A stretch of DNA of 64,000 nt from Liolophura sinensis (lineage: Eukaryota; Mollusca; Polyplacophora; Chitonida; Chitonidae): NCBI RefSeq assembly GCF_032854445.1, contig NC_088302.1, positions 40,862,191 through 40,926,190 on the forward strand, in the 5' to 3' direction. The notes below the pieces were generated by a model that searched no databases, was not told where the DNA came from, and saw only the letters and a program-made list of their open reading frames with translations. This document shows, piece by piece, positions 343 through 40,749 of this stretch. Both the position numbers and the translations under genes were made by a program. How positions within the stretch are numbered: position 1 is the stretch's first letter; each line of letters starts with the position of its first letter.

Positions 343-3300
343 CTCAATGTATGCCTTTAAATCCACTAGATTGATAACCATGCCTGTTATTGGGTCAACC
401 TATAAAAAGAGAACATCAACCACAATAAATGGCAGACATACAGGCATTCCAAATAAGTACAAAAGTGCTCGGGAGCAGGCTACTAGCACATCACTAGCAC
501 AACTTTAGCACGCTTCTAGTATATAACTACCATTTCATCAGCTACTTGTACACTGAATAACAGATACAGCCCAAAACAGGATGAAGGTGCTCAGGGGCAA
601 CCTACCAGCACAAGACTAGCTCAACTTAAGCATGCTTCTAATATATAACTACCATTTCATTAGTTACACAGAATAGCAGATGCAGCCCCAATCAGAATGA
701 AGGTGCTTGGTGGCAGACTTCAGCATAGTCATGTATTCCATTTGGACATTTGTTTTCTCACACTCACTTGTAGAATGATGGACTGTGTTATGGGTGGAAG
801 ACATCAGAGTGCCCAGAGGGAGCCACCAGAAAGACCAGAGGAACACACCAGAGAGCCCAGAGGGAGCCACCAGACAGCCCAGAGGGAGCCACCAGAGTGC
901 CCAGAGGGAGCCACCAGTGTCCTGAGGGAGCGACCAGAGTGCCCAGAGGGAGCGACCAGAGTGCCCTGAGGGAGCCACCAGAGTGCCCAGAGGGAGCCAC
1001 CAGAGTGTCCTGAGGAGCCACCAGAGTGCCCAAAGGGAGCCACCAGAGTGTCCTGAGGGATCCACCAGAGTGTCCAGCGGAAAACAACATAGTGCCCAGA
1101 GGAAGACAACAGTGCCCAGATGGAGTCATCAGTGCCCAGAGAAGGCAACAGAGTGCCTAGAGGGAGCCACCAGAGAGCCCAGAGAAGGCAACAGAGTGCC
1201 TAGAGGGAGCCACCAGAGAGCCCAGAGGAAGACACCAGAGTGCCCAGTTGGAACACACCAGAGAGCCCGGAGGAAGACACCAAAGTGCTCAGAGGGAGCC
1301 ACCAGAGACCCCACAGGAAGACACCAGAGTGCCCAGAGGGAACCACCAGTGCCCAGAGGGAGCCACCAGAAAGACCAGCGGAACACACCAGACAGCCCAG
1401 AGGGAGCCACCAGAGTGTCCAGCGGAACACAACATAGTGCCCAGAGGAAGACAACATAGTGCCCAAAGGAAGACAACATAGTGCCCAGAGGAAGACAACA
1501 GTGCCCAGACGGAGTCATCAGTGCCCAGAGAAGGCAACAGAGTGCCTAGAGGGAGCCACCAGAGATCCCAGAGGAACACACCAGTGCCCAAAGGGAGCAA
1601 TCAGAGTACCCAGAGGGAGCCACCTGAGAGCCCAGAGGAACACACCAGAGTGCCCAGAGGAACACACCAGAGTGCCAAGAGGAAGACACCTGATTTTGGT
1701 AAGAAACTAACAACCAGGTGAAGCCAAGACAAATCGCTGTCATTTTCGCCTGAAAGATACAGCTGAAGAAGACAGAGTTGGGTTTGAGTCTGTAAGCACA
1801 TTGGTCAGGGGCCGATTGCCGCTGTAGCCAGAACAAATCTTTTATCTGAGCCAGTGAAACACAATAAATACTTTTGGAAATAGCACTCCATTTGTTTCCC
1901 TGTACACACTTGTTATATACTCACTGGTCCCCTGACAATTACTTCCACTGAAATGAAAATAAAAAAAATATATATATAAATAAATCAATAAAAATGATCA
2001 AATTTAAAGACAACATGTTTTGGCACAATTACCCACTACAACCTAAATTAAAATTGAACACCATAAGCTAATTCAGAGGATTTTTCTTCCACGGGGTCTG
2101 CCAGCAGCCTTGAGGATGGTCATGGATTTTCCTTCGGGTTTGCCCTGTCTCCTTCCACCATAATGCAATTTCTATGAGATACCAAAGCCATATCTAGAGC
2201 CATTCTAGTCCTGGAAAACTTTTGGGCATGCAAACTAATCAAACTGTAGTATAAACCAACAAATAATTTGAACCAAGATATCACAGTTTACCACAAAAAT
2301 TTAGTTTTTACACAAAATTTGATCATCCACCGACTTTAAAGTCATCACGTTGATTTTCCATTTTAATAATTTTTGGTATTTGGGATCTAAACCTTGATTT
2401 TTTCTGGATATAGCCATGTATACCTGCAAACAATTTACAGTGATTGATATTTATTTTGCCTTATTTATGTTTTCATCACCTGGGTACTCACCTTTGTAAT
2501 TATGACCATGGCCATTAGGGTTATTACACTTCCCGAAAATGTCCACATTGTCCTTCTCACTTAGCTTCTGGCTACAAATGGTTAAAAACGTATGCAAAGT
2601 CAATACACTTCTTTCAGGTATACCAATATTAACAGATACACAGAAAAAATAATATTTCTACAACAAATATGTGTAAAAAATACTTTAGAAGTAACAAGTA
2701 ATCTTTTTTCTCTTTTAATGATCAGTAAATTATTCATATCTGCTATTTCCATTTCGTGGGCCTCTGTTGATGAAAGGGTTAGGACAACAATATGGTCGCT
2801 GTGAGCTCAAGCCCAGCTGGCAGCTGGCTTCCTCTCCAGCCATAAGTGGTAAGGTCGAAGCAACCTTCAGATGGTCAGGCGTTTACACCCCCTCCCCCTT
2901 CCACCCCCCCGGTTTCTTCCCACCATAATGCTGGCTGCCATCATATAAGTGAAATATTCTTGAGTACGGCATAAAGCAACAATCACATAAATGTTTCTTA
3001 TTCTCTATAGTTATTTATTAATATGTATTTTATGCTTACTTATTCATTTGAATGATGTTAAACACCATCGTCAATCATTTTTTGACTTACATTGAGGTGT
3101 TCAGGATAATAAGTGGAGGAAATTGAAGTGGCCGGGATAAACCACTGACCTTAGTGATAAGTTTCCCAATATGTGACATACAGACAAAATGGTCTTCAAG
3201 GAATGTAAGACTGTGCAGATGGCAGCAGCAATCAGTGTCATTGACTAATTACTGTTATCAAAAGGAGTGGGGAATACAGGTAGTCCCTGTCCATGACTGG

Positions 3301-4229: not shown

Positions 4230-5870
4230 CCCTTCCACTGTTTTAAGGTCTCTGGTGTTATAAACACTAGTGAAGAGTCAACTCTCACATGGTTTCCTAG
4301 ATGGTCTTGCATGAAATTTGCTCAGGATAACTTGCCTTTCACCAACATGACATATATTACATATCTGCAAGTAGTCACCACGTGTGAGAAAGTGTGTCAG
4401 TCACTTGCCAAAGGCCTGTTGTCATATGCACTTGATAAAATTTAAATATTCTTGAGTACGGTGCTAAACCCGTCTGCTACTGTTAGCTAAGTAAAAAGAC
4501 TCTAAAATACAGGTAATGCTGGGAAATTAGGTTCATGTCATAAAGACTTTCACTTTTAAAAATAGTGTATTGAAAACTATCTAACATTATTTCCTTATCA
4601 TACCCATTTAATTCGTACCGGTATATGGTAAATTACCAATATATCTTAGCCACGTCCCCAACCCCCAATCCCGAGCAGAAGAATATTCTGTAGCACATTT
4701 GCTAGCCAAAATATATGACCATTGACCTGTGCAATGTTAACACTGTCAAGACGTGTTACAATAACATATCTACAGAATGTACCAAGATGCTGCAGGCAAC
4801 ATCACCCATCTGTCATCACTCACTCATTCACTCAGCATTGTACGGTACTCAAATGACTCAAACGTGAAAATAGGTGATGAGCATAATGGTAGGATGCACT
4901 GACGTCTCACTGTGGCCACTATCAGTAAGTGTTGATTTAGGTGATGTCGGATGTGATTGTCAAACAATTCAAGTTATACTGTGCATGACATGTCACCATC
5001 AACTTACACTGCTGTCTTCTTTTTTTTCACTTTCCCCCCTTTCATCTGAAACTTTCGAGGCGAGCACTCTATGAGTTTTATAACCTAGACATATAACCGA
5101 AAAACATATAGCCGAGTTACCCCATTTGATTTAAAATTGGGCAAAAACTATCTTAAATATTTATATAAATAAATATCTACGGCGCGAGTTGAAACTGTAG
5201 AAAAAATTGTTCTAATTTATGGAAGAAAAAAAGTATTCATTTTTATTCAGGTGATTTTCAATTCTGCTTTTTGCTGAAATCTGTCATCTAAACTATGATT
5301 GGTTCAAATACAACGCAGCCGAAGAAACCGGAAGCACATGGGTTGTCAATGATGCTATGATCAGAGAAATTATGATTTCTGCTCTTAAAAATGAGTCTCA
5401 GGGAGATTGTAACGCTTCAAGTGGGACATTATTCAAACTTTGTTGGAACACATTGGTGGAATTTGCAGGTATGACCTGAAGCTGTAAGAAAATTCGAAAA
5501 TTCGCGCGAAGCCTTGTATTTGAAACAACAACAACGTTCGCCATCCACATACATAGTAGTCCGAATTTTCTGACTAGAACTTGCAGTAGATATTGTCATA
5601 GGCCCCACCGCATGCTGCAGTATAGTCAGGAGAACGCTCCGTTTGAAAAAATGAACGAAAATGAAAATTTTCAAACAACGTTGCTGAGGCTAAATTACCC
5701 ACCTCATCATCTTGTTTAAGCCCATCTAGGTGCACCCAGTGTGGTACTTCAAAATTCTGACATTCATCGTAACACTGAGTCCATCGCCATCTCTCAAACA
5801 AATCGCCCCAATCTGCGCACTCCAACTCGATGGAGCTGATCTCAATAAGGGCCATGCTCACGGCACTCAA
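4230..5870 (-). CDS. Possible two-exon minus-strand gene overlapping MSTO1 exon 1 (unrecognised)
   Basis: Not a recognised family. An open stretch on the minus strand begins with ATG at 5870 (or the next ATG, giving [18 protein letters not shown]) and runs through [11 protein letters not shown] and [11 protein letters not shown] possible donor 'gtaatt' follows a GAT GAT GAG GTG G end near 5690. A second open stretch at about 4294-4230 follows a 'catctag' acceptor in matching phase and reads [19 protein letters not shown]. The joined text looks protein-like, with Trp, Cys and acidic residues unlike nearby noncoding DNA. However, the acceptor tract is weak, no downstream donor is clear, and the proposed intron would contain MSTO1 exon 1 on the other strand. 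It could be chance open frame or old transposon debris. Confidence 0.22.
4440..4490 (+). mobile_element. SINE family 1 tail fragment
   Basis: Only the 3' tail motif 'atattcttgagtacggtg' plus flank remains. Confidence 0.5.
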
Positions 5871-8800
5871 ACTGGCTGTTTTGAAGACGAGTTATATTAA
5901 CGTGTAACTTTCTACGTCACTAGTTACATCAGTTCATTCATGCTTTGCTGAAAGAGGTTGGCCAAATATGGAACAGACCCTTTTCAGCTGTAGTTCACTT
6001 GACAAAATCATGTGACACGCACATGAGCATTCAACCCTGATCGTGTTCGCCTGTCTTAAAAGCATTTGAAAAGCATGTTCTACCTTATCAATTTGAGTAG
6101 TGTAGTGGTGTAAGCAACCGGCTACGGACTCGACATGCTGTCTAATGGAAGTTCGAATCCAAAGCATTTCACAACAAGTTAAGTAAATCCTTTCAAAAAA
6201 GGTATAAATCGCAAAGCCGTGTCATATAAAGGACACAGACACGTGACAGAAACTAGAATAATAAACATAGTATTTACACTGTGTTTCTTTGTACGCAAAT
6301 TGAACGTCTCCCCATTCAATATTAACCAATGAAAAATCAGTAAAAGCACCTGACCATGGGAAAACAAATGACGTCAAAATGCACATGGAAGTCAACATGT
6401 AAATGTAACCTTTGCCCTTACAACTCCCCCCCCCCAAACTTATTAGTTCAGTTAACTTAAAGGTAGAGTTTTTTTTCAGTGTTTTTTGTTATTTGCCTGC
6501 GTCAATGTTTCGTCATTGAATTCAAAAGCGCTGTAGATCCATTTTACAAGGCACTTTGCAGAACAAAGTTGACCATTAAATCTACTCGGATACAGCAGCA
6601 CGCTGATTTCTGGTGTGCATGAAAGGGAATAGTACCTGTATTATCAGTCCTGCAAATGTAAATCCATTCCTTGAAATGTTGTTAAAATCTGCAGAAATAT
6701 TTCCTTCTAGCTCATCAAAATAGCTTTATGCTCTCATGTCGAGTCGGGTGCACTAAAATCTCAGGACCGCACCCCAAAAGATGCGTGAATCAACTTAACA
6801 CAAAAAGACCATGCAACCAGTCCTAAAGGACAACTTCAGCGATGATTTCAAATAAGTCATAGTGGTTGTAGAATAGAAAAAAGAATTTGCCCGTTCCAGT
6901 CAAGGCTTGTGGCTATCCAAGAACAATATTTTGACGAATTAAGTCTCCCAAACCTCGTCTCCATTCACGCTTTCACTCCTACCGGGATTGCCACCCATGT
7001 GTATGCACGAACTGCTTATGTCACACATATGTCATATATTGATAAGTTCACATTTGTATTATACATATACAGCTATGAACAGGCCATGGTCAACTGGTTA
7101 GAAGTGCTTGACTTTTAGTTGCCAGGACAAATGGTCTTCCACAAATATAGTGTGCATATCCATATATCCTGGCTTCCTTACTGGCCGTATGTGGAAAGGT
7201 CTGCAAGCAACCTGCGGATGGGCGCAGGCTCCACCGGGCTCTGCATGGTTTCCACTCACCATAATGCTGGTCGTCGTATAAGTGAAATATTCTTGAGTAC
7301 GCCGTAAAACACCAATCAGATAAATAAATAAATAAATCAACCGTATGTAGGAAATTTTGTCAGTAACTTGCTTTAGGACAGTGGGTAATTACGCCAGGCA
7401 TTCAAGTTTCCTCCACCCATGAGGCTAACTGTCATTGTAAAAATCCACTCCAAAATTGTCAAATATGGTGTTCGGCAACAGAAAGATAAATAAATGTGTA
7501 TATATCTTTACCAGAATGACTGTTTCACTCCCCCACCCCAACCCCTGCCCACTCCACACCCCTCAATGACCACAAGATTGTCATAGTCACTATGAACAGC
7601 CCAAGAGGCTGAATTTAGCATGCTAAGAGTAGCATGTTTTCTCTGTTAAATAGTTCTCTATAGTACACTTGCCCATTATGCGAAGTTTGGAAAATATTAC
7701 ATGCATTCAAGTCTTAAATATGTTGTTGAATAAGACCATCACAAGAGAGAATTAAAGGAGAAGAAAACTTAAAAACATGACATTACAGGCTGAAAAGAGC
7801 ACATTTTTTTCTATCTGGTGTTGCCTGCTGCATAATTTTGCCGTTTTTCCTCGCCATACACGTAAAGCCTGAAGACGGCAAAGCTGGCATAAATCGCTGA
7901 GTCCATTGCGTCCTCCATCTTTAACACCCAGTAATGTATGCTGAGCTTGTGTTGCCTCTCAGCCAATGAGAGTCGTTAAAACTGCTGGCTTGTTTGTGTA
8001 AACTCGGAACCTACGTCCAACATTCCGGTTTCCTGATCAACAAGCGGAAAACGAACTGTACTGTTCACTACCTTCAGGAGAGAAGAGTTCTACCGGAAAT
8101 GTACAAACTGCACTTAGGCAAAATGGAGTTGCTCACAGTGGATTTTGGCGCTGACTTTATTTATAATTTATCAATTTGAGGTACATATTAGAATGTTTTT
8201 TTATGGCATGCACCTGCGAGGAAAAGCATACTCTTTTTAATGGTATTTGATTGATATTTAAATTTTTTTCTCCTTTAAGAGAATTTGTATAGAACTGTTC
8301 ATTTTTTCAGGAGGCATCTTTTGTATATGATACAAAATCCTCACCAGCAGATAAAGAAATAAACCATGATGTGTTGTTCAGAGAGGGGAGGAATCTTATG
8401 GTAAGATCTTCTGAAAGGCTTTAAATTTGTTGTTTGGCAGTAAACAAAACTTGGAACTACAGAAAGCTTGAATTAAGTTATGTTTATTTGCCAACGTTTT
8501 ACGCAAATTTGAAAAGGGTTTGTGTGTATTTATTTTTAATCTTTTATTATCCTCTTGCATTTGTTAACAGTGTTTGAGATGATGTTTTTCCCTACCTATT
8601 TATGTACATGTACTGGGCTTTGTTTTGCTTGATGGTGATGCATTGGCAAATTACTTGTGATGTGTCACATCTGATATACTTTAGTTGTATTTGGCAGAGT
8701 TGTGTTTATATTATTATTATTATTTGTTATTATGTTTATATAGTAGATTTTACGTTATGCACATCAAGTGATGTCATTTAATACATGATCATCACCACTG

Positions 8801-9251
8801 ATATCTGTAGTTGTGTATTACCAGGGATGTCACATTCATGTCACATTTTATATCCATAATATAGGAGTTTGATGTTCCAACTCTTTGACATTAAAGGTAA
8901 AACAGTCCTACTGTATCATGTGGCTTGTAATGTGACGTTACCTTGGTTGACGCCAATTTACTGATCACTTATCTCACCTTGTTCCAGAGGCACAGATGAC
9001 ACCTCTTCCTTTAGAAACTTCTCAAGTTCATAAATTTCATCTCCTCAATTTTCTACATTATTCATTGACCCTAAATAACTTTTTATGAAACTTTGAGCCC
9101 ATGTTATAGTAAATGTAATCAAAAATAGTTGCCTCACATCCTTGACAGGTCACATGTTTATATAGCAAGACGTTTTTTTACCTTTAGCGAGTTCAAACAC
9201 CAAACTCCAAACTCCCCTTTGTTTTGCAAACCAGTGTTACATTTTTATCGT

Positions 9252-9307
<56 letters not shown>

Positions 9308-12300
9308 GCATATATGTGGTTGGGTTTTACAGTGGAATGTCACATCAAATACATAATATCTGGTTTTGTTCTACACAATGATGTCACAGTCACATCTTGC
9401 CCAGTGTCAAGAGTTTTATTTATAAAGTGACCTCACATCATATCTCTTATCTGTGACTTTGTTTTTACAGGCTGATGTTACATTCACACCACATCTGATA
9501 TCTGTTGACTTCAGATCATATTTTTTATCTGTGACTTTGTTTTTACAGGCTGATGTCACATTTACACACATTTGTTGAACTTGCATAATATCTCTTATCT
9601 GTGACTGTGTTTACAGACTGATGTCACATTCACACACATCTGTTGACCTCACATCATATCTCGTCTGTGACTTTGTTGTTACAGGCTGATGTCACATTCA
9701 CACACATCTGTTGACCTCACATCATTTCTCTTATCTGTGACTTTGTTGTTACAGGGTGATGTCACATTCACACCATGCCTGATGTCTCTTGACCTCACAT
9801 CATATCTCTTATCTGTGACTATGTTGTTACAGGGTGATGTCACATTCACACCACGCCTGATATCTGTTGACCTCACATCATATCTCTTATCTGTGACTTT
9901 GCTTACAGACTGATGTCACATTCACACACATCTGTTGACCGCACATCATATCTCTTATCTGTGACTTTGTTGTTACAGGCTGATGTCACATTCACACACA
10001 TCTATTGACCTCACATCATATCTCTTGTCTGTGACTTTGTTGTTACAGGTTGATGTCACATTCACACCATGCCTGATATCTGTTGACCTCACATCATTGC
10101 TCTTAATTGTGACTTTGTTGTTACAGGGTGATGTCACATTCACACACATCTGTTGACCTCACATCATATCTCTTGTCTGTGACTTTGTTGTTACAGGGTG
10201 ATGTCACATTCACACCACACCTGATATCTGTTGACCTCACATTATTGCTCTTAATTGTGACTTTGTTGGTACAGGGTGATGTCACATTCACACCATGCCT
10301 GATATCTGTTGACCGCACATCATATCTCTTATCTGTGACTTTATTGTTACAGGGTGATGTCACATTCACACACATCTGTTGACCTCACATCATATCTCTT
10401 GTCTGTGACTTTGTTGTTACAGGGTGATGTCACATTCACACCACACCTGATATCTGTTGACCTCACATCATTGCTCTTAATTGTGACTTTGTTGTTACAG
10501 GGTGATGTCACATTCACACCACGCCTTATATCTGTTGACCTCGCATCATATCCCTTTTCTGTGACTTTGTTGTTACAGGGTTATGTCACATTCACACCAC
10601 ACCTAATATCTGTTGACCTCACATCATATCTCTTGTCTGTGACTTTGTTGTTACAGGGTGATGTCACATTCACACCACACCTGATATCTGTTGACCTCAC
10701 ATCATTGCTCTTAATTGTGACTTTGTTGTTACAGGGTGATGTCACATTCACACACATCTGTTGACCTCACATCATATCTCTTATCTGTGACTTTGTTGTT
10801 ACAGGGTGATGTCACATTCACACCACACCTGATATCTGTTGACCTCGCATCATATCCCTTTTCTGTGACTTTGTTGTTACAGGGTGATGTCACATTCACA
10901 CCACACCTAATATCTGTTGACCTCACATCATATCTCTTATCTGTGACTTTGTTGTTACAGGGTTATGTCACATTCACACCACACCTAATATCTGTTGACC
11001 TCACATCATATCTCTTATCTGTGACTTTGTTGTTACAGGGTGATGTCACATTCACACCACACCCTATATCTGTTGACCCCACATCATATCTCTTGTCTGT
11101 GACTTTGTTGTTACAGGGTGATGTCACATTCACACACATCTGTTGACCTCACATCATATCTCTTGTCTGTGACTTTGTTGTTACAGGGTGATGTCACATT
11201 CACACCACGCCTGATATCTGTTGACCTCACATCATATCTCTTATCTGTGACTTTGTTGTTACAGGGTGATGTCACATTAACACCACACCTGATATCTGTT
11301 GACCTCACATCATATCTCTTGTCTGTGACTTTGTTGTTACAGGGTGATGTCACATTCACACCACGCCTGATATCTGTTGACCTGAAGGACAGCCTTAACA
11401 CACTCCGTCAAGAGGGGACGCTGTATGATGTTAAGCTTGAGGAGGATGTTAACTGGTAAGGCTGGGGTTGTCTTCAGTTTTAAATTGGACAGCATGGAAA
11501 GTGTGTAGGTTGATGTTTAAATTGAGGCGTGGAAATCATATGTGCATCTAGAGTTATCCATTCTTAATCTTGTTAATTGGGAAAATTTGCCACTTTATGT
11601 AAAATGCTGACCTAAAATGCTGACCACTGGGAACATAACTTCTTTTTGGCAACAATGTTACTGATTGAAGCTTAATGAGTTGTTGCCTAATAAAGGTTTA
11701 GTGTGTGTTTACTAATGCTGTATGGTTTTGTTATGTTCCATATCTGGTATCTTTGCAGATACATTTAATGTCAGCAGCACAGCAATCACACTATAGTTTT
11801 ATTCAAATAGCAACAGTAAAAAAGGTAAAAAACAGTGATGACTTAAAAACCATAAATGCATCAGTAATTACAACAACTTCTGCAGAATGCTGTCACTAAT
11901 CACTAGGGCTGCATTTTGCTGTGTCAACAACTTTTTGAATTGCTATACATAATGTTTTCTGATGGAATACTTATGTAATTTTGCCAGTGTTTACAGTCTA
12001 AAGTTATGTTGCTTCATTGTAGGGAAGGGGATGTAACTCTGCACAATTCCATCTTCACTCCCAAAAATAAATTCTTACAAGACCTTGAAAAAGAAGATGT
12101 AGGTACCCATATATCAATTTCTTTTTTGCGTTTGTTGTATTAAAAGTTTAATTCCAAGTATTCATATACATTATGGCAGAATTTGGAAAATCCTTTTTAT
12201 TTCATTTTAAAAGTTATTTCATTGATTGCAGTTAATAATTATTTGAAGGTTTTCTTTTACATGCTATCACATTTTAAGATGTGTATGTTTGAACTGACTT

Positions 12301-15300
12301 TCAGTGATAAGGTTGCTTGCCATTTCAGGAAGCCCTGTTGTCAGATGGCAATAATTTGGAGAAAACACGTGATGTAGAAGAGGCTGGTGACACCCCAGGT
12401 ACTCACTCTAGAGTGTGATGGTCATGACCATCAAACTAAGTTGATAACTGGGGTCTTTCTTTTGATGCCTTAGCAGTACACTGTTGTAGCTCTGGTATTG
12501 GGATATGGATAGGACATTTCAGTTTTTCCGATGGCTTTAGACCACAATTACTTTTCAATATACTTACTCTCCGGTTGTTCACATAATAGAGGGATCCATG
12601 TATTTCAAATAGTCAAATAAAAGTGGTATGAACCTAGCCCTGCAGTTAGTCAAATCGTGAGGATATTACAGCAACACTACAGTTAAATGTCAATAGGAGA
12701 TGTTCTAACTGGCGCCTATGAGCATAGCATTCAGGTAGTTTAGTCCCTATTTACATTATACAGCATTTATTTGTTTTTTGATTGGTGTCTCATGTTGTAC
12801 TTAAGGATATTTCACTTATATGCCAGCAGCCAGCATTATGGTGGGAGGAAACTGGGCTCTGGGGAACCCACGACCATCTGCAGGTTGCTGGCAGACTTTC
12901 CTGCATACGACAGGAGAGGAATCCAGCATGAGCTGGATTCACAGTGATTGCATTAGTGTTAGGCCCCTGTGTCATTGCACCGTGCTGGCATGCTAAACTA
13001 TCTGCCACGGACGCCACCAATTATACAGGAATGTAACAAGACATCCCTTGTGGATGCTAGGGTGAAGAACCTGTCACTATTAAGATAACATGACATAACG
13101 GAACATGACACACTGGGTGTACTGAACAGATAACTTTTGTGTGATCGGTTGTCAAAGTCAGGTACATGGAAAAGCAACCTTCTCCTCTGTCCAGGGATGT
13201 GGGCAAAATGTTGTGTTTTGTCTGTTTGTACATGTATTCTTGAGGAATTCTTTGATGGAGTTAAGACTAGGGGGTAACTCAACACTAGGGGGTAACTCAA
13301 CACTAGGGGGTAACTCAACACTATCAGAAAAATAAAGTATATCAGTTGGAAATCTTTTTGAAATCTGGGGAATGCGAAAGATAAGGATTTCAAAGAAATT
13401 AACATTAGGGGAAAATATATCCCCCCCCCCCAAAAATCCATCAAAATCTTCAAAGAAATGCCTTTTTTGGAGGATCAGTGGCAATAGCCCCAACAAACAT
13501 ACACATATTTTTAACAGTGGCACAGGCCTGATGAATTGTTTTTATTTTTTTAAATGCAGACAAGAATGTAGCCAAGAATGAAAAAGTGGAACAGATCTTT
13601 GGCCCAAAGTATTATAACCTTGATTCAGAGGTCAAAGTCTGGTCTGACTTTCTGAGGATTCATCTTCATCCCAGATCTCTTAATATTGTACAGGAATATA
13701 CCCATAATAAGTAAGTATTTCATATATGTTTGTTTACATTTGGCAATCTTAGTATATGTATATTCTAGTTTGTTTGCTGTCTTTCAGTAGAAAGCGAGTA
13801 GAGTAATCACTAATTGATGTGGTGCCCATACATGTTTACTGTTTCTGTGTGTGGTATCATATGTGGTACAGTGGGAAGGTCTGGCAGCAACCTGTGGATG
13901 GTCATGGGTTTCCCCCAGGTTCTGCCCAGTTTCCTCCACCATAATGCTTACTGTCATCGTCCAAGTGAAATATTCTTGAGCACGGCATAGAACACCAAAT
14001 AAGTAAATAAATATCCCTCGCACAGTGTACACATCATAAATATTCAGATCAAGGTGTTGGAATTCTTTAGCCGTTATTGCGGAATGGTTGCAGTAAGTGA
14101 TAAACTGATAGTGCCTCTTAGCTACATGTACATGTAGATACGTGTACAGTTGCTTTGAAGTCACTTATCTTCCACCAATAATCAAACACACATACTGGCC
14201 CATATAGCAAAGTTGTTAGAACGTCCGCTTCAGGAGCAGTAGATCCAGGGTTAATCCTGGGTCAAGTTACACCGAAGACCTTAAAAGAGGAAGTTGTAAC
14301 TTCCTCGCTTGGCGTTCAGCATGAAGGGGATAGAGCAAGGACCGATTGACTCGTATCAGTATAATGGCTCGGGCGGGGCGGCTTACTTGCCTTCGGTAAG
14401 GCATCTCATTGAAGCAGCACTAGATAAAAGAGCGGTGTAAATCCGTCTTGCAAGAAGGAGGCACATAACATGCACTCTAAGGATTCCTTCATCGTCATAT
14501 GACTGAAAAAGTATGACATTGAAGCCCAAGCACTCACTCACTCACTCACTCAGACATACACATTTACATCACACTGCGAATGAAAGTATGTATGTTACAA
14601 CTAAGAAAGTTTTTCACTTATTTGGCAAAGTCTAGCAGTTTATTCCACCCTTGACCACAATTTGGTTTCCTCAGTAAACTTGAAACTGATTAACGTCTGT
14701 CAAGGGATCTTCAACACTAATCAGTCATTTGCTATCATGCAAGGAAACATGGCTGAGATTTAATCATTTGCTATGCTGGATGTACAAAGAATAATTTTTA
14801 AGATGCGTTGTTAGTAGCCTCATAGACTGAATTCTAATGTGCTAGCATAGCACGATGACCCAGGAGCCTCACACCAATGGGGTCTCTCTGAGTTCAAGTC
14901 CAGCGAATGCTGGCTTCATCCCCCATCGTACGTGGAAAGTTCTGCATGTAGCCTGCAGATGGTTGTGGGTTTTCTTCCAGGCTCTGAGTGGTTTCCTCTT
15001 AGGCTCTGAGTGGTTTCCTCTTAGGCTCTGAGTGGTTTCGTCTTAGGCTTTGAGTGCTTTCCTCTTAGGCTCTGAGTGGTTTCCTCTTAGACTCTGAGTG
15101 GTTTCCTCTTAGGCTTTGAGTTGTTTCATCTTAGGCTTTGAGTGGTTTCCTCTCCCACCATAATGCCGGCTAAACATATTCTTGAGTACGTCATAAAACC
15201 GCAATCAGTGAATCACTTTGAACAGATTAGTTAATTATGATTCACATACACATACTACATTTGTTGCCTAACAGTCCCGTGGAGCCGTTCGACATCTATG

Positions 15301-18300: not shown

Positions 18301-21300
18301 TTCCCAATGCCATCCTCCAGCACCTTGGTGGACACACTCGTCTCTCGTCAGGGGGGACTACTCTGGACTGGCCTCACTCCTGGGTTGACAGGGAATGCTC
18401 TCCCTTATATGCAGTCAGTGGTCCTCAGAGGAATACCTGATGCCCGTGTAAAGAGGTGAGAAGGGGTTCAAGCATTAATTCTGAGCTATCGTGAAGTATA
18501 ATCTATTACTCAGGGTGTAGAGATGGGACAGATGGGACTGTTACATGTAGTCCATTTCACTTCACATTCAGGGTAAACTGTAATTTTTAGAATAATATTA
18601 GTGGTGCTGAAAACAGAAAATTACATTTCTTTCTCTTTGGTTTTGGAAAGTGAAGACATCCATACATGTATGTTCTTGATTAGATGCACATACCATTTGA
18701 GAACAAAGAAACTGTGTGTATTGGCTAAAAAGATCAGAGAATGTGCCCCCAAAATTAGAAGAATCACTGCACTGTAAACAGGGGCAAAGCACTGATTATT
18801 GTGGAGAAAATGATAATTTGGTCACAAGATCAATGAGAATGATGCCCCCAGTGCAGCTGACTAGAATCTCTCATTGGGTTTAAATGAAAATGACTACCTC
18901 AACCTTTTTGCATAAGGAAGAGTAACTTTCAGGACAATATATTCACAGTTTTAATTAGATTTTGAAGACAAAACTTTATTGGTTGGATTGACCAGTTTCA
19001 CAAAAAGTATAAGTTTATCAGTCAGCACAGAATAATGCTTGAAAAAACACCTTGCAAACATGTGAAAAGGTTGGGAATAACAGTATGTGTAAAATAATCG
19101 CCCAAAAACTTATGTGCTGACCATTTCACATTCATGTAGTTTTGGTGTCTCTACAGTGCCAGGTTATCAGCTCCCCTTGTCTTTGTTGTGAGTTTGCTGA
19201 GAATCTAAAAACTGTGATGGTGTACATATATGTGCACTTGTCAAGGTAGCAGTCCTGATCTGATAAATACATGGTATGTTGTCCAGCTATTGTTGTGCCA
19301 AGCCAAGATTAGATGGAGCAAATGACCTAATAATATGACCTCAAAACATCTTTGGAGGCAAATATACTGGCCTCGATAGCACAGTTGGTAGAGTTTTCGC
19401 TTCGGGAGGCGAAGCTGTAACTTCCTCGCTTGGCGTTTAGCATGAAGTGGATAGTGCAACTACTGGTTGACCCATATCAGTATAATGGCTCGGGTGGGGC
19501 GGCTTACTTGCTTTCGGTAAGACATCTCAGTGAAGCAGCACTAGATAAAAGAGCGGTGGAAAATCCGTCTTGCAACAAGGAGGCACATAACATGCACTCT
19601 AAGGATTCCTTTGTCATCATATGAGTGGAAAATTGTTAAGTACGACATTAAACCCCAAGCACTCACGCACTTGGAGGCAAATAAATGTCATGAGATATTA
19701 CTGCTGAGTCTAAAATTTGCATTTTTCCAGTAGGATATCATCCTACCTCCTCAACACCTCTCAGAGCACCTTTTTACAATCAATAGAACTCCCAGAATCT
19801 GGAAAAATGTGCAACGTAATCATGGACGAAATTTTAGGTCATTTAGGGTAATTGTGTAAGGCTAATTTCAAAGCTTGTTTTATGCAGTGGCAAACCTCTT
19901 CAAGAACTGCCAAGAATTTTGTCCCAGTGTGAGAAGAAAGAGGAAATTCTCAAGCTGTACATTACTGAAATGTTCCCCACCACACTGAAGTAAGTCTGTG
20001 TCAGATGACAGTATAATACATTACTGAAATGTTCCCCACAACACTGAAGTAAGTCTGTGTCAGATGACAGTATAATACATTACTGAAATGTTCCCCACCA
20101 CACTGAAGTAAGTCTGTGTCAGATGACAGTATAATACATTACTGAAATGTTCCCCACCACACTGAAGTAAGTCTGTGTCAGACGACAGTATAATACATTA
20201 CTGAAATGTTCCCCACCACACTGAAGTAAGTCTGTGTCAGATGACAGTATAATACATTACTGAAATGTTCCCCACCACACTGAAGTAAGTCTGTGTCAGA
20301 TGACAGTATAATACATTACTGAAATGTTCCCCACCACACTGAAGTAAGTCTGTGTCAGATGACAGTATAATACATTACTGAAATGTTCCCCACCACACTG
20401 AAGTAAGTCTCTGTCAGATGAGAGTATAATACATTACTGAAATGTTCCCCACCACACTGAAGTAAGTCTGTGTCAGACGACAGTATAATACATTACTGAA
20501 ATGTTCCCCACCACACTGAAGTAAGTCTGTGTCAGACGACAGTATAATACATTACTGAAATGTTCCCCACCACACTGAAGTAAGTCTGTGTCAGATGACA
20601 GTATAATACATTACTGAAATGTTCCCCACCACACTGAAGTAAGTCTGTGTCAGATGACAGTATAATACATTACTGAAATGTTCCCCACAACACTGAAGTA
20701 AGTCTGTGTCAGATGACAGTATAGCACAGTAAGGTACGGTACATGGTAGGGGCTCTGTAGGGCCATACCATTAGAGAGCAGGTTCCACAAGGAAGCCATG
20801 TATGCTCAGTAGATGAAGGCTTGTGGAATGTAAGTAGAAGTCTGTGTATTGTAACGTGCTAGGCCTGCAAATAATATAAGCTACATGTAGGAGTAGGTTA
20901 TGGGCATTCCACTTTAAAAAGCACTTCCAGCAGCCTGCCGATGGTCGTGGGTTCCCCTAGTTTCCTCTCACCATAATGCTGGCCGCCGCCGTATAAGTGA
21001 AATATTCTTGAGTACACCGTAAAACACCAAATCAAATAAATAAATTAAAAAACACAACTGTATGTTCCTTACTTGCTTCTTCTCTATAGACAATGGAGTG
21101 TGTAACCCCCTGCTTTATATGTTCATCACGATGAAATGAGATATGTGTATGTACATGTAAGACATTTAGTCCTCTTCTGTCTTGACATAGGAAACTTTCC
21201 AGGGCCCTGTTTCACAAAGTGGGCCGAGCACTACGTTCATGTAATTACCATGCTGGTGTAATATCTAAAATACTAGTTGCCACGGAAGGTACGTGCACGA

Positions 21301-33466: not shown

Positions 33467-35395
33467 TGTATGGATTTTTATGTGACTTCATGACCCTCAT
33501 GTGGGTATGTCACTGCCTTTTTTATGTGACTTCATGACCCTCATGTGGGTATGTCACTGCCTTTTTCATGTGACTTCATGACCCTCAGGTGGGTATGGCA
33601 CTGCTTTTTTTATGTGACCTCATGACCCTCAGGTGGGTATGTCACTGCCTTTTTTATGTGACTTCATGACACACAGGTGGGTATGTCACTGCTTTTTTAT
33701 GTGACTTCATGACCCTCAGGTGGGTATGGCACTGCTTTTTTTATGTGACTTCATGACCCTCATGTGGGTATGTCACTGCCTTTTTTATGTGACTTCATGA
33801 CCCTCAGGTGGGTATGGCACTGCTTTTTTTATCTGACTTCATGACCCTCGGGTGGGTATGGCACTGCTTTTTTTATGTGACTTCATGACCCTCAGGTGGG
33901 TATGTCACTGCCTTTTTTATGTGACTTCATGACCCTCATGTGGGTATGTCACTGCCTTTTTTATGTGACTTCATGACATGCAGGTGGGTATGGCACTGCT
34001 TTTTTATGTGACTTCATGACACGCAGGTGGGTATGTCACTGCCTTTTTTATCTGACTTCATGACCCTCATGTGGGTATGTCACTGCTTTTTTTATGTGAC
34101 TTCATGACCCTCATGTGGGTATGTCACTGCCTTTTTTATATGACTTTATGACCCTCAGGTGGGTATGTCACTGCTTTTTTTATGTGACTTCATGACCCTC
34201 ATGTGGGTATGTCACTGCTTTTTTATGTGACTTCATGACACGCAGGTGGGTATGGCACTGCTTTTTTATGTGACTTTATGACCTCAGGTGGTTATGTCAC
34301 TGCCTTTTTTTTATGTGACTTCATGACACGCAGGTGGGTATGGCACTGCTTTTTTATGTTACTTTATGACCTCAGGTGGGTATGTCACTGCCTTTTTTTT
34401 ATGTGACTTCATGACCCTCATGTGGGTATCTCACTGCCTTTTTTATATGACTTTATGACCCTCAGGTGGGTATGTCACTGCCTTTTTTATGTGACTTCAT
34501 GACCCTCATGTGGGTATGTCACTGCCTTTTTTATGTGACTTCATGACACGCAGGTGGGTATGTCACTGCCTTTATGTGACTTCGTGACCCTCATGTGGGT
34601 ATGTCACTGCCTTTTTTATGTGACTTCATGACCCTCATGTGGGTATGTCACTGCCATTTTTATATGACTTTATGACCCTCAGGTGGGTATGTCACTGCCT
34701 TTTTTATGTGACTTCATGACCCTCATGTGGGTATGTCACTGCCTTTTTTATGTGACTTCATGACACGCAGGTGGGTATGTCACTGCCTTTTTTATGTGAC
34801 TTCATGACCCTCATGTGGGTATGTCACTGCCTTTTTTATATGACTTTATGACCCTCAGGTGGGTATGTCACTGCCTTTTTTATGTGACTTCATGACCCTC
34901 ATGTGGGTATGTCACTGCCTTTTTTATATGACTTTATGACCCTCAGGTGGGTATGTCACTGCCTTTTTTATGTGACTTCATGACACGCAGGTGGGTATGT
35001 CACTGCCTTTTTTATGTGACTTCATGACCCTCAGGTGGGTATGTCACTGCCTTTTTTATGTGACTTCATGACCCTCATGTGGGTATGTCACTGCCTTTTT
35101 TATGTGACTTTATGACCCTCAGGTGGGTATGCCACTGCCTTTTTTATGTGACTTCATGACACGCAGGTGGGTATGTCACTGCCTTTTTTATGTGACTTCA
35201 TGACCCTCATGTGGGTATGGCACTGCTTTTTTTATGTGACTTCATGACCCTCATGTGGGTATGTCACTGCCTTTTTTATGTGACTTCATGACCCTCAGGT
35301 GGGTATGTCACTGCCTTTTTTTATGGGACTTTATGACACACAGGTGGGTATGTCACTGCTTTTTTTATGTGACTTCAGGTGGATATTTTGCTGCA
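33467..35395. repeat. 44-bp array, ~43 copies
   Basis: Unit 'ttttttatgtgacttcatga' + 'ccctcatgtgggtatgtcac' + 'tgcc'. Two variant types, 'ccctcatgtggg' and 'acacgcaggtggg', alternate in blocks. Unit length varies slightly with the T-run. A stray partial copy lies at 39004-39035. Confidence 0.96.
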
Positions 35396-35600: not shown

Positions 35601-35767
35601 ACAGACCTACAGGTTATTGGTATCTACAACCTGCTACTTCATGAAAACAATGAGCAGGTATAGCTGTTTTCTTTGGCCAAAGCCTCTGTTGCATTTTATT
35701 TAATTTTCCACCAGGTAGCTAGCTGCTTTTCCAGAATAGCCTTCTACTAAAAGTAATAATGGTATAT

Positions 35768-37372
35768 GTGTGAGTGTGGATTGTATTTTGACCCGTGCAG
35801 AACTGTCTGGAGAACTGTTATATCACAGTATCTGACCCGACCATGTGTGAGTGTGGACTTGTATTTTGACCAGTGCAGAACTGTCTGGAGAACTGTTGTA
35901 TCACAGTATCTGACCTGGCCATGTGTGAGTGTGGACTTGTATTTTGACCAGTGCAGAACTGTCTGGAGAACTGTTATATCACAGTATCTGACCCGACCAT
36001 GTGTGAGTGTGGACCTTTTTAGACCAGTGCAGAACTGTCTGGAGAACTGTTATATCACAGTATTTGACCCGACCATGTGTGAGTGTGAACTTTTTTTGAC
36101 CAGTGCAGAACTGTCTGGAGAACTGTTATATCACAGTATTTGACCCAACCATGTGTGAGTGTGGACTTTTTTTGACCAGTGCAGAACTGTCTGGAGAACT
36201 GTTATATCACAGTATTTGACCCGACCATGTGTGAGTGTGGACTTTTTTTGACCAGCGCAGAACTGTCTGGAGAACTGTTATATCACAGTATTTGACCCGA
36301 CCATGTGTGAGTGTGAACTTTTTTTGACCAGTGCAGAACTGCCTGGAGAACTGTTATATCACAGTATTTGACCCGACCATGTGTGAGTGTGGACTTTTTT
36401 TGACCAGTGCAGAACTGTCTGGAGAACTGTTATATCGCAGTATTTGACCTGACCATGTGTGAGTGTGGACTTTTTTTGACCAGTGCAAAACTGTCTGGAG
36501 AACTGTTATATTACAGTATTTGACCCGACCATGTGTGAGTGTGGACTTTTTTTGACCAGTGCAGGACTGTCTGGAGAACTGTTATATTACAGTATCTGAC
36601 CCGACCATGTGTGAGTGTGGACTTTTTTTGACCAGTGCAGAACTGTCTGGAGAACTGTTATATCACAGTATCTGACCCGACCATGTGTGAGTGTGGACTT
36701 TTTTTGACCAGTGCAAAACTGTCTGGAGAACTGTTATATCACAGTATTTGACCCGACCATGTGTGAGTGTGGACTTCTTTTGACCAGTGCAGAACTGTCT
36801 GGAGAACTGTTATATCACAGTATTTGACCCGACCATGTGTGAGTGTGGACTTTTTTTGACCAGTGCAAAACTGTCTGGAGAACTGTTATATCACAGTATT
36901 TGACCCGACCATGTGTGAGTGTGGACTTTTTTTGACCAGTGCAAAACTGTCTGGAGAACTGTTATATCACAGTATTTGACCCGACCATGTGTGAGTGTGG
37001 ACTTTTTTTGACCAGTGCAGGACTGTCTGGAGAACTGTTATATTACAGTATCTGACCCGACCATGTGTGAGTGTGGACTTTTTTTGACCAGTGCAGAACT
37101 GTCTGGAGAACTGTTATATCACAGTATCTGACCCGACCATGTGTGAGTGTGGACTTTTTTTGACCAGTGCAGAACTGTCTGGAGAACTGTTATATCACAG
37201 TATTTGACCCGACCATGTGTGAGTGTGGACTTCTTTTGACCAGTGCAGAACTGTCTGGAGAACTGTTATATCACAGTATTTGACCCGACCATGTGTGAGT
37301 GTGGACTTGTATTTTGACCAGTGCAGAACTGTCTGGAGAACTGTTATATCACAGTATCTGACCCGACCAGAC
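35768..37372. repeat. ~76-bp array, ~21 copies
   Basis: Unit 'accatgtgtgagtgtggact' + T-run + 'gaccagtgcagaactgtctg' + 'gagaactgttatatcacagt' + 'atttgacccg'. Length changes come from the T-run, which breaks reading frames; apparent open frames are not coding. A duplicated sub-block order suggests unequal exchange. Confidence 0.96.
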
Positions 37373-38039: not shown

Positions 38040-40749
38040 ATGATGCAGGAGTTGCCAGGAACCTCCGATAGTAACAGGGACCTCAGCTTCCTGGAGGCCG
38101 TCCTGCAGAAAAAAGACGTGGACCTCAGTTTACAGAAGAGCGAGGCAGGCTCGCGGGTCTCTGTTCTTCGGCAGAACGGCAACGTGAGCCGCCCATCGAG
38201 CCTCTCCAAGAGAGGCAGCATCAACCTGTCGCGACAGAGCCTGGACTCGTCCAAAGATTCGCTGGTCTATCGCTGTGAGAGCAGCCCAGTGTCGAGACTC
38301 CTGGTCAGTCTGGGTCACTTGTCCCTGGTTGCCCTCATCCTGGCCGTGCTGGCAGTACAGCTACTACTCTCCATAGCACAGGTAAACTACGCCCCCAGTC
38401 ATGATACTCTTGTCAACAACTCCTTTGTGTTCGAGGATGTGCTGGAAGTGGGTGTTGCCATGACAACTCTTGTGGTGGTCCTCAACCTGTGCTGCCTCAT
38501 TGTCTGCACAATGCAGGTTTTCTTTGTGGCCAAAATTCTCAGTCTGCCTCAGGGTGAAGAAAGGTAAGTGTCAGTATTATATGACAAGGTATGTCATATC
38601 ATGGTTTTGCAGTGAAGCAGCATTATATAAAACATACTGACCAACTTTGCGACAACACAAAAAGTCTCTTGATGTGAATGACATGCATGCAATATGGAAA
38701 TGGACATTAAAACTCCAGGTAGACTTAAGTGAGTGTCACAACATTAGAAATTGTTTAAAAGAAAATTTATTTATTTATTTGAATGCTGTTTTGTGCCATA
38801 CGCAAGAATATTTCGCTTATACGACTGTGGCCAGCGTTATGGTTTGAGGAAACCGGGCAAAGCCTGTTGGGGAAACCCACGACCATCTGCAGGTTGCTGC
38901 CAGACCTTCCTACATACAGCAGGAGAGAAAGACAGCTGGAGCCAAACTTGAACTCACAGCGAGTGCACTAGTGAGAAGCCCCTGGGTCATTGCACCTTGC
39001 TGGCTAACTGCCTTTTTTATGTGACTTTATGACCCCGATCACCTCAGCCAGGGAGACCTCCTTTAAAAGAAAAAACGAACACTTAAAGATGAAAGGTGCA
39101 TCAATACCTTTCACATGTGAAAATACCTTTTATATGCATCAATAAAGTATCCCACAGGAAGTTTAAAAGGCATCACTTTTTATTTCTGTGATGTTGCACA
39201 ACCGAGATATCGCAGTTCAAAGTAAGCAGAATCACGCGCATTGAGACAATTGAAAGTGCCACCTTGTTGTCAGTGTTAACCAATGAGGCGCCAGTTATTT
39301 CTGTAACCCAACATTGCAGCTGTTTCTGCTTAAATCACCTGAACCCTGTTTTGCTTTTTAATCACTTGTGTGGGGTATTGGTGACTAGACATTGTGTTTC
39401 CAGTTTCTCTAACATGGTGCATCTCATGGGCACATAAATCCAGTTGACCAGATTTAGTGTTTTTAGTATACTCTACCTGGATGGCTTAAAGTATTCATAC
39501 CTGAATGCAAGGTTCACAAGTGAACTACAGTAGGTTATACAGTAGGCCACTGGTGAGGTGTGCCAAGAGACCAGTAGGCAACGGAACATCCCAGTATCTT
39601 TCATACATGTATACAGGAGCATTTTGATTGGACAATTTGGCCCAGCTTTTGAGACATACCTGTTTTTTATTGTTTCAGGGCCAAGAAGTATTTGGCTGAA
39701 TGCTCCAGCAGCCGCCTTATGGCCGTCATGGGGTTCTTTGTTTCTGTTCCAGCATTCTTTATCAGTACGTATAATGCTCACATTTCTCATGGCATTCTTT
39801 ATCAGCATGCTCACATTTCTCGTGGCATTCTTTATAAGTAAATGTAATGCTCACATTTCTCATGGCATTCTTTATCAGCCTGCTCACATTTCTCATGGCA
39901 TTCTTTATCAGTAAGTATAATGCTCACATTTCTCACGGCATTCTTTATGTATAAGTATAATGCTCACATTTCTCATGGGGTTCTTTGTATGTCTTCTGGC
40001 ATTCTTTATCAGTAAGGTTAGTGTTCACATTGCTCTGTGAGTTCTTCGTGTCTGTCGTTGTCATATGACTGAAAAATTGTTGAGTACGACGTTAAACCCC
40101 AAGCACTCACGCACTCATTCTTCGTGTGTGTTTTAGCATCATTAGCATAATCTTGACAAGTTGATTTCTTATGAGGTGTTTATGTATGAAGTTGCTGAAA
40201 AATACATTATTATTTAGTAGGCTTTGAATACCTGTCATATATTGTGCTTGGTCTGGAAAAACTTTCTTTAATGATTGACTGAAGAGTCATGTTTTTATCA
40301 AAATCTGGCCTAGCAACAATATGCAATAAAAATAAGTAGGGAAGAGAATTTTTCACATCAAACTTGGCTGAAATTTCTTCTACTAGCTCACATGCCATTT
40401 GTGAAACAATTAGATTTGGCCATTTTGGCCGAAGACACCCTGAAAATCATGATTTCAATTTGTCGCCTGATTATGGTACATATAGGACTCCCTTTTTGTT
40501 TGTACAGGTTTGATACTGTTCACACTCCTGAAGTTCCGATCAACCCCTGCGATTGTGTCCACAGGCGTACTGGCCGTGGGCATCCTAATGTGTCTGTTAA
40601 CCATGATGCAGAATACATACCACTGGCGTGTGGAGAAAGAGAGGGCGGATGATGGGTTCCCAGCCTACGACCCGCCACCCAGTTCCATGTACAAATCTGC
40701 CCCACTAGAATTAGGCCCTACAAAGAGTGAGCTGTCCACACTTGTCTGA
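38040..40749 (+). CDS. Four-transmembrane protein, TMEM221/Jiraiya-like
   Basis: Three exons: 38040-38563, 39679-39764, 40508-40749 (GT-AG, phases 2 then 1), total 852 nt, 283 aa. The Ser/Arg-rich cytoplasmic N-terminus (1-82) has RPSSLSKRGS, likely phosphorylation targets. Four hydrophobic segments lie near 86-113, 135-166, 186-211 and 218-240. An NNS glycosylation sequon at 126 sits in the first loop. The tail is Pro/Tyr-rich (AYDPPPSSMYK) and ends STLV, a class I PDZ ligand pattern. Topology and length fit TMEM221 (Xenopus Jiraiya, which restrains BMP receptor II), but I recognise this by layout rather than residue-level recall; another tetraspan family is possible. Start: first of two adjacent ATGs (38040/38043). 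Exon 2's donor region is tandemly repeated and a ~32-bp array begins right after the stop. Confidence 0.75.
38760..39060 (-). mobile_element. SINE family 1, nearly full length, with inserted 44-bp-array fragment
   Basis: TTTA tail, 'tgtgccatacgcaagaatat', 'gaccatctgcaggttgctgc', head 'ggtcattgcaccttgctggc'. Within the head, a ~30-bp piece of the 44-bp array ('tgccttttttatgtgact') replaces or interrupts the expected 'taac-tgcctcagcc' text. Intron 1 of the TMEM221-like gene. Confidence 0.8.
39729..40050 (+). repeat. ~40-bp array of the TMEM221-like exon 2/intron 2 junction
   Basis: Exon 2 ends 'gcattctttatca' and the intron starts 'gtacgtataatgctcacatt'. The following DNA repeats 'ggcattctttatcagtaagt' + 'ataatgctcacatttctcat' some 7-8 times, with variants lacking the donor ('atcagcatgctcac'). 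The last copies recover more exon text ('catggggttctttgt'). Confidence 0.9.
40055..40115 (+). mobile_element. SINE family 2 tail fragment
   Basis: 'gtcatatgactgaaaaattg', 'ttgagtacgacgttaaaccc', 'caagcactcacgcactca'. Confidence 0.75.

Follow-up and report, generated by a model that had tools for sequence, protein, structure and literature searches.

Minisatellites that straddle splice junctions, termed mirages, have been described in amphioxus, in Adh3, the globin genes BflGb6 and BflGb9, PGBD5 and the troponin C gene (PMC3087553, PMC3902484). In these accounts the repeats span an intron-exon boundary, many copies keep the AG or the GT and the gene stays intact, and mirages come as 3' or 5' types in which the exon-proximal copy is the real site (PMC3087553, PMC3902484). 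The amphioxus arrays are described as length-unstable, and RT-PCR suggested that splicing was undisturbed for the genes tested (PMC3087553). The same anatomy is found in a chiton, in an array directly upstream of exon 3 of MSTO1 and in further arrays described below. The initial annotation had held that a repeat array born from a functional splice junction is not a standard category of repeat; judged by its anatomy, the MSTO1 array is the same as the amphioxus mirages as these are described (PMC3087553), and the kind was already known.

The two cases differ in host and scale, with the MSTO1 array residing in a mollusc and carrying 25 decoys compared with 6 and 3 units in two BflGb6 haplotypes, and in that the frequency was estimated over sampled exons in the chiton while the amphioxus accounts cited report single genes. 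No report of mirages in molluscs was found in searches of an open-licence library, which does not establish their absence. The present analysis contributes the mollusc host, the size of the MSTO1 array and the frequency across sampled exons. Human genes in segmental duplications, too, are described as having tandem repeats that copy splice sites at the exon-intron boundary; those repeats differ among recent paralogs, and transcript support is reported for 27 intron modifications (PMC2812944). MSTO1, in contrast, was found in one place and its array is known here from the genome sequence. Intron gain by internal tandem duplication, reportedly treated by Rogers in 1989 and by Gao and Lynch in 2009, likewise involves duplication of a stretch carrying splice signals. 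It differs from the MSTO1 case, in which an old intron was lengthened and no new intron arose.

The array at MSTO1 exon 3

The window (the whole stretch analysed, 64,000 nucleotides) includes a forward-strand housekeeping gene identified as misato/MSTO1 because the predicted protein joined from exons 2–13 matched Tubulin_3 (PF14881) at 3.4e-23 and Misat_Tub_SegII (PF10644) at 4.8e-19 in a Pfam comparison. Exons 2–13 were placed by eye and have AG/GT borders, and their frame is open with the last acceptor of exon 3, which requires exon 5 to end at 12398 and exon 6 at 13710; exon 1, near 5400–5469, was placed by eye alone. Exon 2 (8311–8400, 90 nt) ends at the donor ATG/GTAAGA, and exon 3 (11343–11455, 113 nt) begins at the 26th and last of a series of acceptors and ends at a GTAAGG donor. 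Intron 2, between them, is of phase 0, as originally proposed. The 38-residue translation of exon 3 matched PF10644 in its own right (E 2.8e-7). A search of the assembly (632 contigs, 609,464,459 bases) with PF14881 returned two places, each below the cut-off, one of which was MSTO1 at window position 13625.

The 25-copy tandem array of the intron 2/exon 3 junction is real. It was called at 9428–11383 as 78 bp × 26.1 with 87% matches, also with periods of 226 and 382, at scores of 2584–3074 against a threshold of 50, and a DNA search of the assembly found its sequence in a single place. The minisatellite itself (9428–11342) comprises 25 decoys plus the intronic portion of the real junction, and, in agreement with the initial annotation, its units are copies of that junction: a full unit joins approximately 36 nt from the end of intron 2 to the opening 42 nt or so of exon 3. 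The decoy acceptors lie at 9471, 9549, 9617, 9685, 9755, 9833, 9909, 9979, 10049, 10127, 10197, 10275, 10353, 10423, 10501, 10579, 10657, 10735, 10805, 10883, 10961, 11039, 11117, 11187 and 11265. With the real site they make 26 acceptors in register from 9471 to 11343, all with TACAG, spaced by 78 nt (15 times), 70 nt (seven), 68 nt (two) and 76 nt (once); in the short units 8 nt of the exon part are missing. Most copies contain a branch-point-like CTCAC about 35 nt upstream of the acceptor. Each full unit spans the intron-exon boundary; the copies lie on the intron side, and the gene is intact via the exon-proximal copy.

The first units and the copies upstream of them are the most diverged, inner units are close to the consensus, and there is a higher-order period of 382 bp. 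Two decayed copies of the unit lie further upstream in the intron, at 8802–8854 (local alignment score 35, compared with a best of 29 in 100 shuffles) and at 9340–9394 (score 36 compared with 29), the second of which has lost the acceptor AG in its copy at 9377. Judging from these remnants, the array is therefore older than its fresh part implies, and the youngest copies appear to be those near the exon. A TGACCT microhomology between the intron (9428–9433) and exon 3 (11378–11383) may mark the original bounds of the unit, but given the decayed copies further upstream the array may have started from a breakpoint other than 9428.

The AG is kept in all 26 acceptors, hence in 25/25 decoys. Over 23 nt, 12 of the 25 decoys match the real site exactly, and 23 depart from it at two positions at most. 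With a scoring matrix derived from the 11 acceptors of the gene's other exons, 23 decoys reached 9.3–11.8, compared with 11.8 for exon 3 and 8.9–14.7 for those 11 acceptors, while the best of the 147 GT dinucleotides inside the array scored 3.5 compared with 7.0–10.9 for 11 real donors, each matrix being scored on its own training sites. The decoys had been described as mostly in frame, but this did not hold, as only eight of the 25 are in frame with exon 3 (15 of the 25 steps are divisible by three) and only two, at 11265 and 11187, can be read through to the exon 3 donor free of stops; the other 23 meet one. The units of these two open acceptors (11187–11342) would, as the initial annotation calculated, extend exon 3 by 26 and 52 residues, giving exons of 191 and 269 nt. 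The predicted stop in the 70-bp unit at 11117 was found, and from there upstream an exon would be at least 339 nt and up to 1985 nt long, with a stop.

Junction arrays elsewhere in the window and the genome

MSTO1 contains a second junction minisatellite, this one of the donor type (19958–20723, forward strand), made up of a 59-bp unit repeated 13 times with 98% matches. The unit combines the 3'-terminal 32 nt of exon 12 (19888–19989, donor CTGAA/GTAAGT) with 27 nt of intron including GTAAGT, and the real donor is the first copy. A third one, of the 5' splice-site type, was found in the window at 39752–39986 on the forward strand, where the end of a Jiraiya-family exon (approximately 39679–39764) is repeated together with its donor; the match of this exon fragment to PF15038 (E 1.5e-4, 21.8 bits) is under the curated cut-off of 27. 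Besides these three junction arrays, the window has large minisatellites at 33475–35377 (44 bp × 43) and 35766–37369 (76 bp × 21), upstream of the Jiraiya exons.

The genome was surveyed using 95 short exons that were chosen by protein family with repeats disregarded: 40 kinase, 37 DEAD helicase and 18 ABC transporter exons. The kinase set took 40 of the 41 matches of at most 345 nt without a locus, down to C1:9876312 (C7:20735049 was left out), and leaves out about 18 short matches that rank below it. The DEAD set took 37 of 49 matches, leaving out six that were too wide, two near-identical neighbours and four with open frames of more than 300 aa, and the ABC set took 18 of 19 (one was too wide). 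A further 30 kinase loci, mostly single-exon domains, stood outside the count, and none of the 30 had an array across the edge of the match when examined with TRF only (without self-BLAST).

Junction arrays of at least three copies were present at seven of the 95 exons, i.e. seven of 190 junctions or 3.7% (95% interval 1.5–7.4%). They were found at 4/40 kinase, 3/37 DEAD helicase and 0/18 ABC transporter exons; L036, L039 and L074 are of the acceptor type and L051, L060, L086 and L106 of the donor type. At each of the seven, as at MSTO1 exon 12, the exon-proximal copy is the real site. Near-junction arrays at three loci (L069, L072 and L122) and one two-copy array (L120) were excluded from the count.

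The flanks of the 95 exons contained 24 other arrays in approximately 153 kb. Random placement of array births would put an expected 0.75–1.36 across the 190 junctions, compared with the seven observed (P 1.3e-5 to 5.3e-4 by a Poisson test and 3.2e-5 to 1.1e-3 by a conditional binomial test). This expectation used the best-scoring and the largest periods with overlapping flanks removed, under a model in which births are uniform along the flanks; the flanks may include neighbouring exons, and later growth of an array over its flank would raise the expectation. A version based on the smallest periods was dropped because it lowers the expected count. An enrichment was first suspected from the four initial kinase cases; among the 55 DEAD and ABC exons fetched later, three arrays were observed against 0.29–0.62 expected (P 0.0033 to 0.04). 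Arrays merely near a junction showed no excess by eye among the survey exons, with three within 60 bp. Given a small sample and a simple model, the excess of junction-spanning arrays is treated as a lead. It is possible, though on balance doubtful, that splice junctions are preferred birthplaces, or places of preferential survival, of minisatellites in this chiton, with several per cent of junctions, thousands genome-wide, carrying mirages. Such a preference could arise if splicing or transcription were linked to duplication, e.g. through R-loops or breaks forming at junctions.

Some of the surveyed loci had features of their own. The ABC transporter exon at L120 has a donor junction duplicated in two copies 64 bp apart (approximately 560–672, gene orientation), and a pyrimidine tract and an AG precede the second copy, which may represent a small exon or a recently duplicated exon end. 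At L086 (gene orientation, from about position 693), duplicated exon sequence seems to have contributed part of the real donor GTGAGT, so the duplication may have rewritten the start of the intron. The array at L106 (652–1332) has a 97-bp unit in which, by eye, the donor copies alternate between GATAGGTAAGG and GATAAGTAAGG, possibly a two-unit higher-order repeat.

Use or neutrality of the decoys

We consider the exon 3 array to be, with a probability of roughly 0.78, a neutral minisatellite that was born across a splice junction and whose decoys are mostly or wholly unused. The birth event would have been a tandem duplication of a 78-bp segment straddling the intron 2/exon 3 junction, and unequal exchange or slippage, partly acting on multi-unit blocks, would have enlarged the array. 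Each new copy would land downstream of the exon 2 donor and upstream of the intact exon 3 end, and so become intron; a duplication straddling an acceptor would not break the gene as long as the inner copy stays in use, with any further growth going into the intron. Exon 2 is presumably joined to the last acceptor. Exon definition is the most likely reason, as it would favour this site, which alone has a strong donor 113 nt downstream and gives the shortest exon with a real donor. The decoys would then be full-strength sites that drift neutrally, and those at 11265 and 11187 would be the only ones likely to leak. The initial annotation had left the choice between length isoforms, poison exons and simple tolerance; the last is the best supported of the three, and nothing was observed here in favour of the other two.

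Selection on the decoys was sought in the conservation of their AG or GT dinucleotides, where used and kept decoys should show fewer changes than the rest of the unit and harmful decoys more. No constraint was found across nine mirages with 90 decoys, in which 8/180 dinucleotide positions were mismatched compared with 332/5287 elsewhere (Fisher P 0.43, excluding partial self-matches of the real junction), and this apparent freedom argues against a selected function. In the MSTO1 array alone the AG was changed at 0/50 positions compared with 85/1768 (4.8%) elsewhere, a non-significant difference among copies that share descent; its direction is weakly that predicted by decoy use, and it leaves room for use. 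The unit lengths of ten mirages (78, 59, 37, 80, 47, 67, 65, 65, 97 and 40, or 73 for the last) and the decoy mismatch rates together seem to fit neutral passengers. The excess of junction arrays is unpredicted by plain neutrality with uniform birth and counts against the neutral explanation.

Were acceptors 11265 and 11187 used, the array would act as a generator of MSTO1 isoforms with 26 or 52 additional residues, their number varying with array length among individuals. Both sites are of full strength with open frames and would make exons of ordinary length, but only two of the 25 decoys qualify, the unit length is divisible by three in one of the ten mirages and the insert would fall inside the Misato segment II domain, and we regard such use as unlikely. 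Decoys could also tune expression, their use leading to nonsense-mediated decay so that array length sets MSTO1 output. An in-frame stop does follow from 23 of the 25 decoys, whose acceptors are strong; however, the upstream copies have no donor before that of exon 3, so that most would need exons of 339–1985 nt, and this, with the unconstrained decoy dinucleotides of the nine mirages, makes the proposal improbable. It is more improbable still that the array is an acceptor cluster kept by selection because its serial pyrimidine tracts and branch points help to bring splicing factors to exon 3. Every unit does hold a whole acceptor, most hold the branch-point-like CTCAC, and junction-spanning arrays are commoner than expected; against this, the seven surveyed mirages are split about evenly between the donor type (four) and the acceptor type (three), and the decoys show no constraint.

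An assembly artefact is scarcely credible. Tandem arrays can be mis-assembled, and this assembly carries what appears to be a repeated mitochondrial genome on contig C99, but the differences among the copies are patterned and the array is about 2 kb long, compared with the HiFi reads of the Liolophura japonica assembly, which are reported to average 8,347 bp at 14X (PMC11068029). The exact copy number of the exon 3 array could nevertheless be off. Contig C99 (108,685 bases) has seven same-strand cox1 matches, mostly about 15.5 kb apart, and is probably an artefactual tandem mitochondrial contig; an eighth match lies on C632. The mitochondrial gene order, with names assigned by eye, is nad3-nad2-cox1-cox2, which is consistent with a mollusc.

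Splice-site competition and intron growth

Each mirage is a natural competition test among splice sites that are identical except for where they lie. With both types represented among the seven of 95 exons, there seem to be enough of them for RNA-seq from one species to rank identical sites by distance to their partner, which is usually approached with designed minigenes. Mirages at many stages of decay also show how introns lengthen by absorbing copies of exon edges, from which new introns have been proposed to arise. Should the junction excess hold up, it would point to a hitherto unrecognised cause that makes tandem duplications occur at splice junctions, and if junctions are indeed preferred, a single genome would hold thousands of natural experiments with duplicated splice sites.
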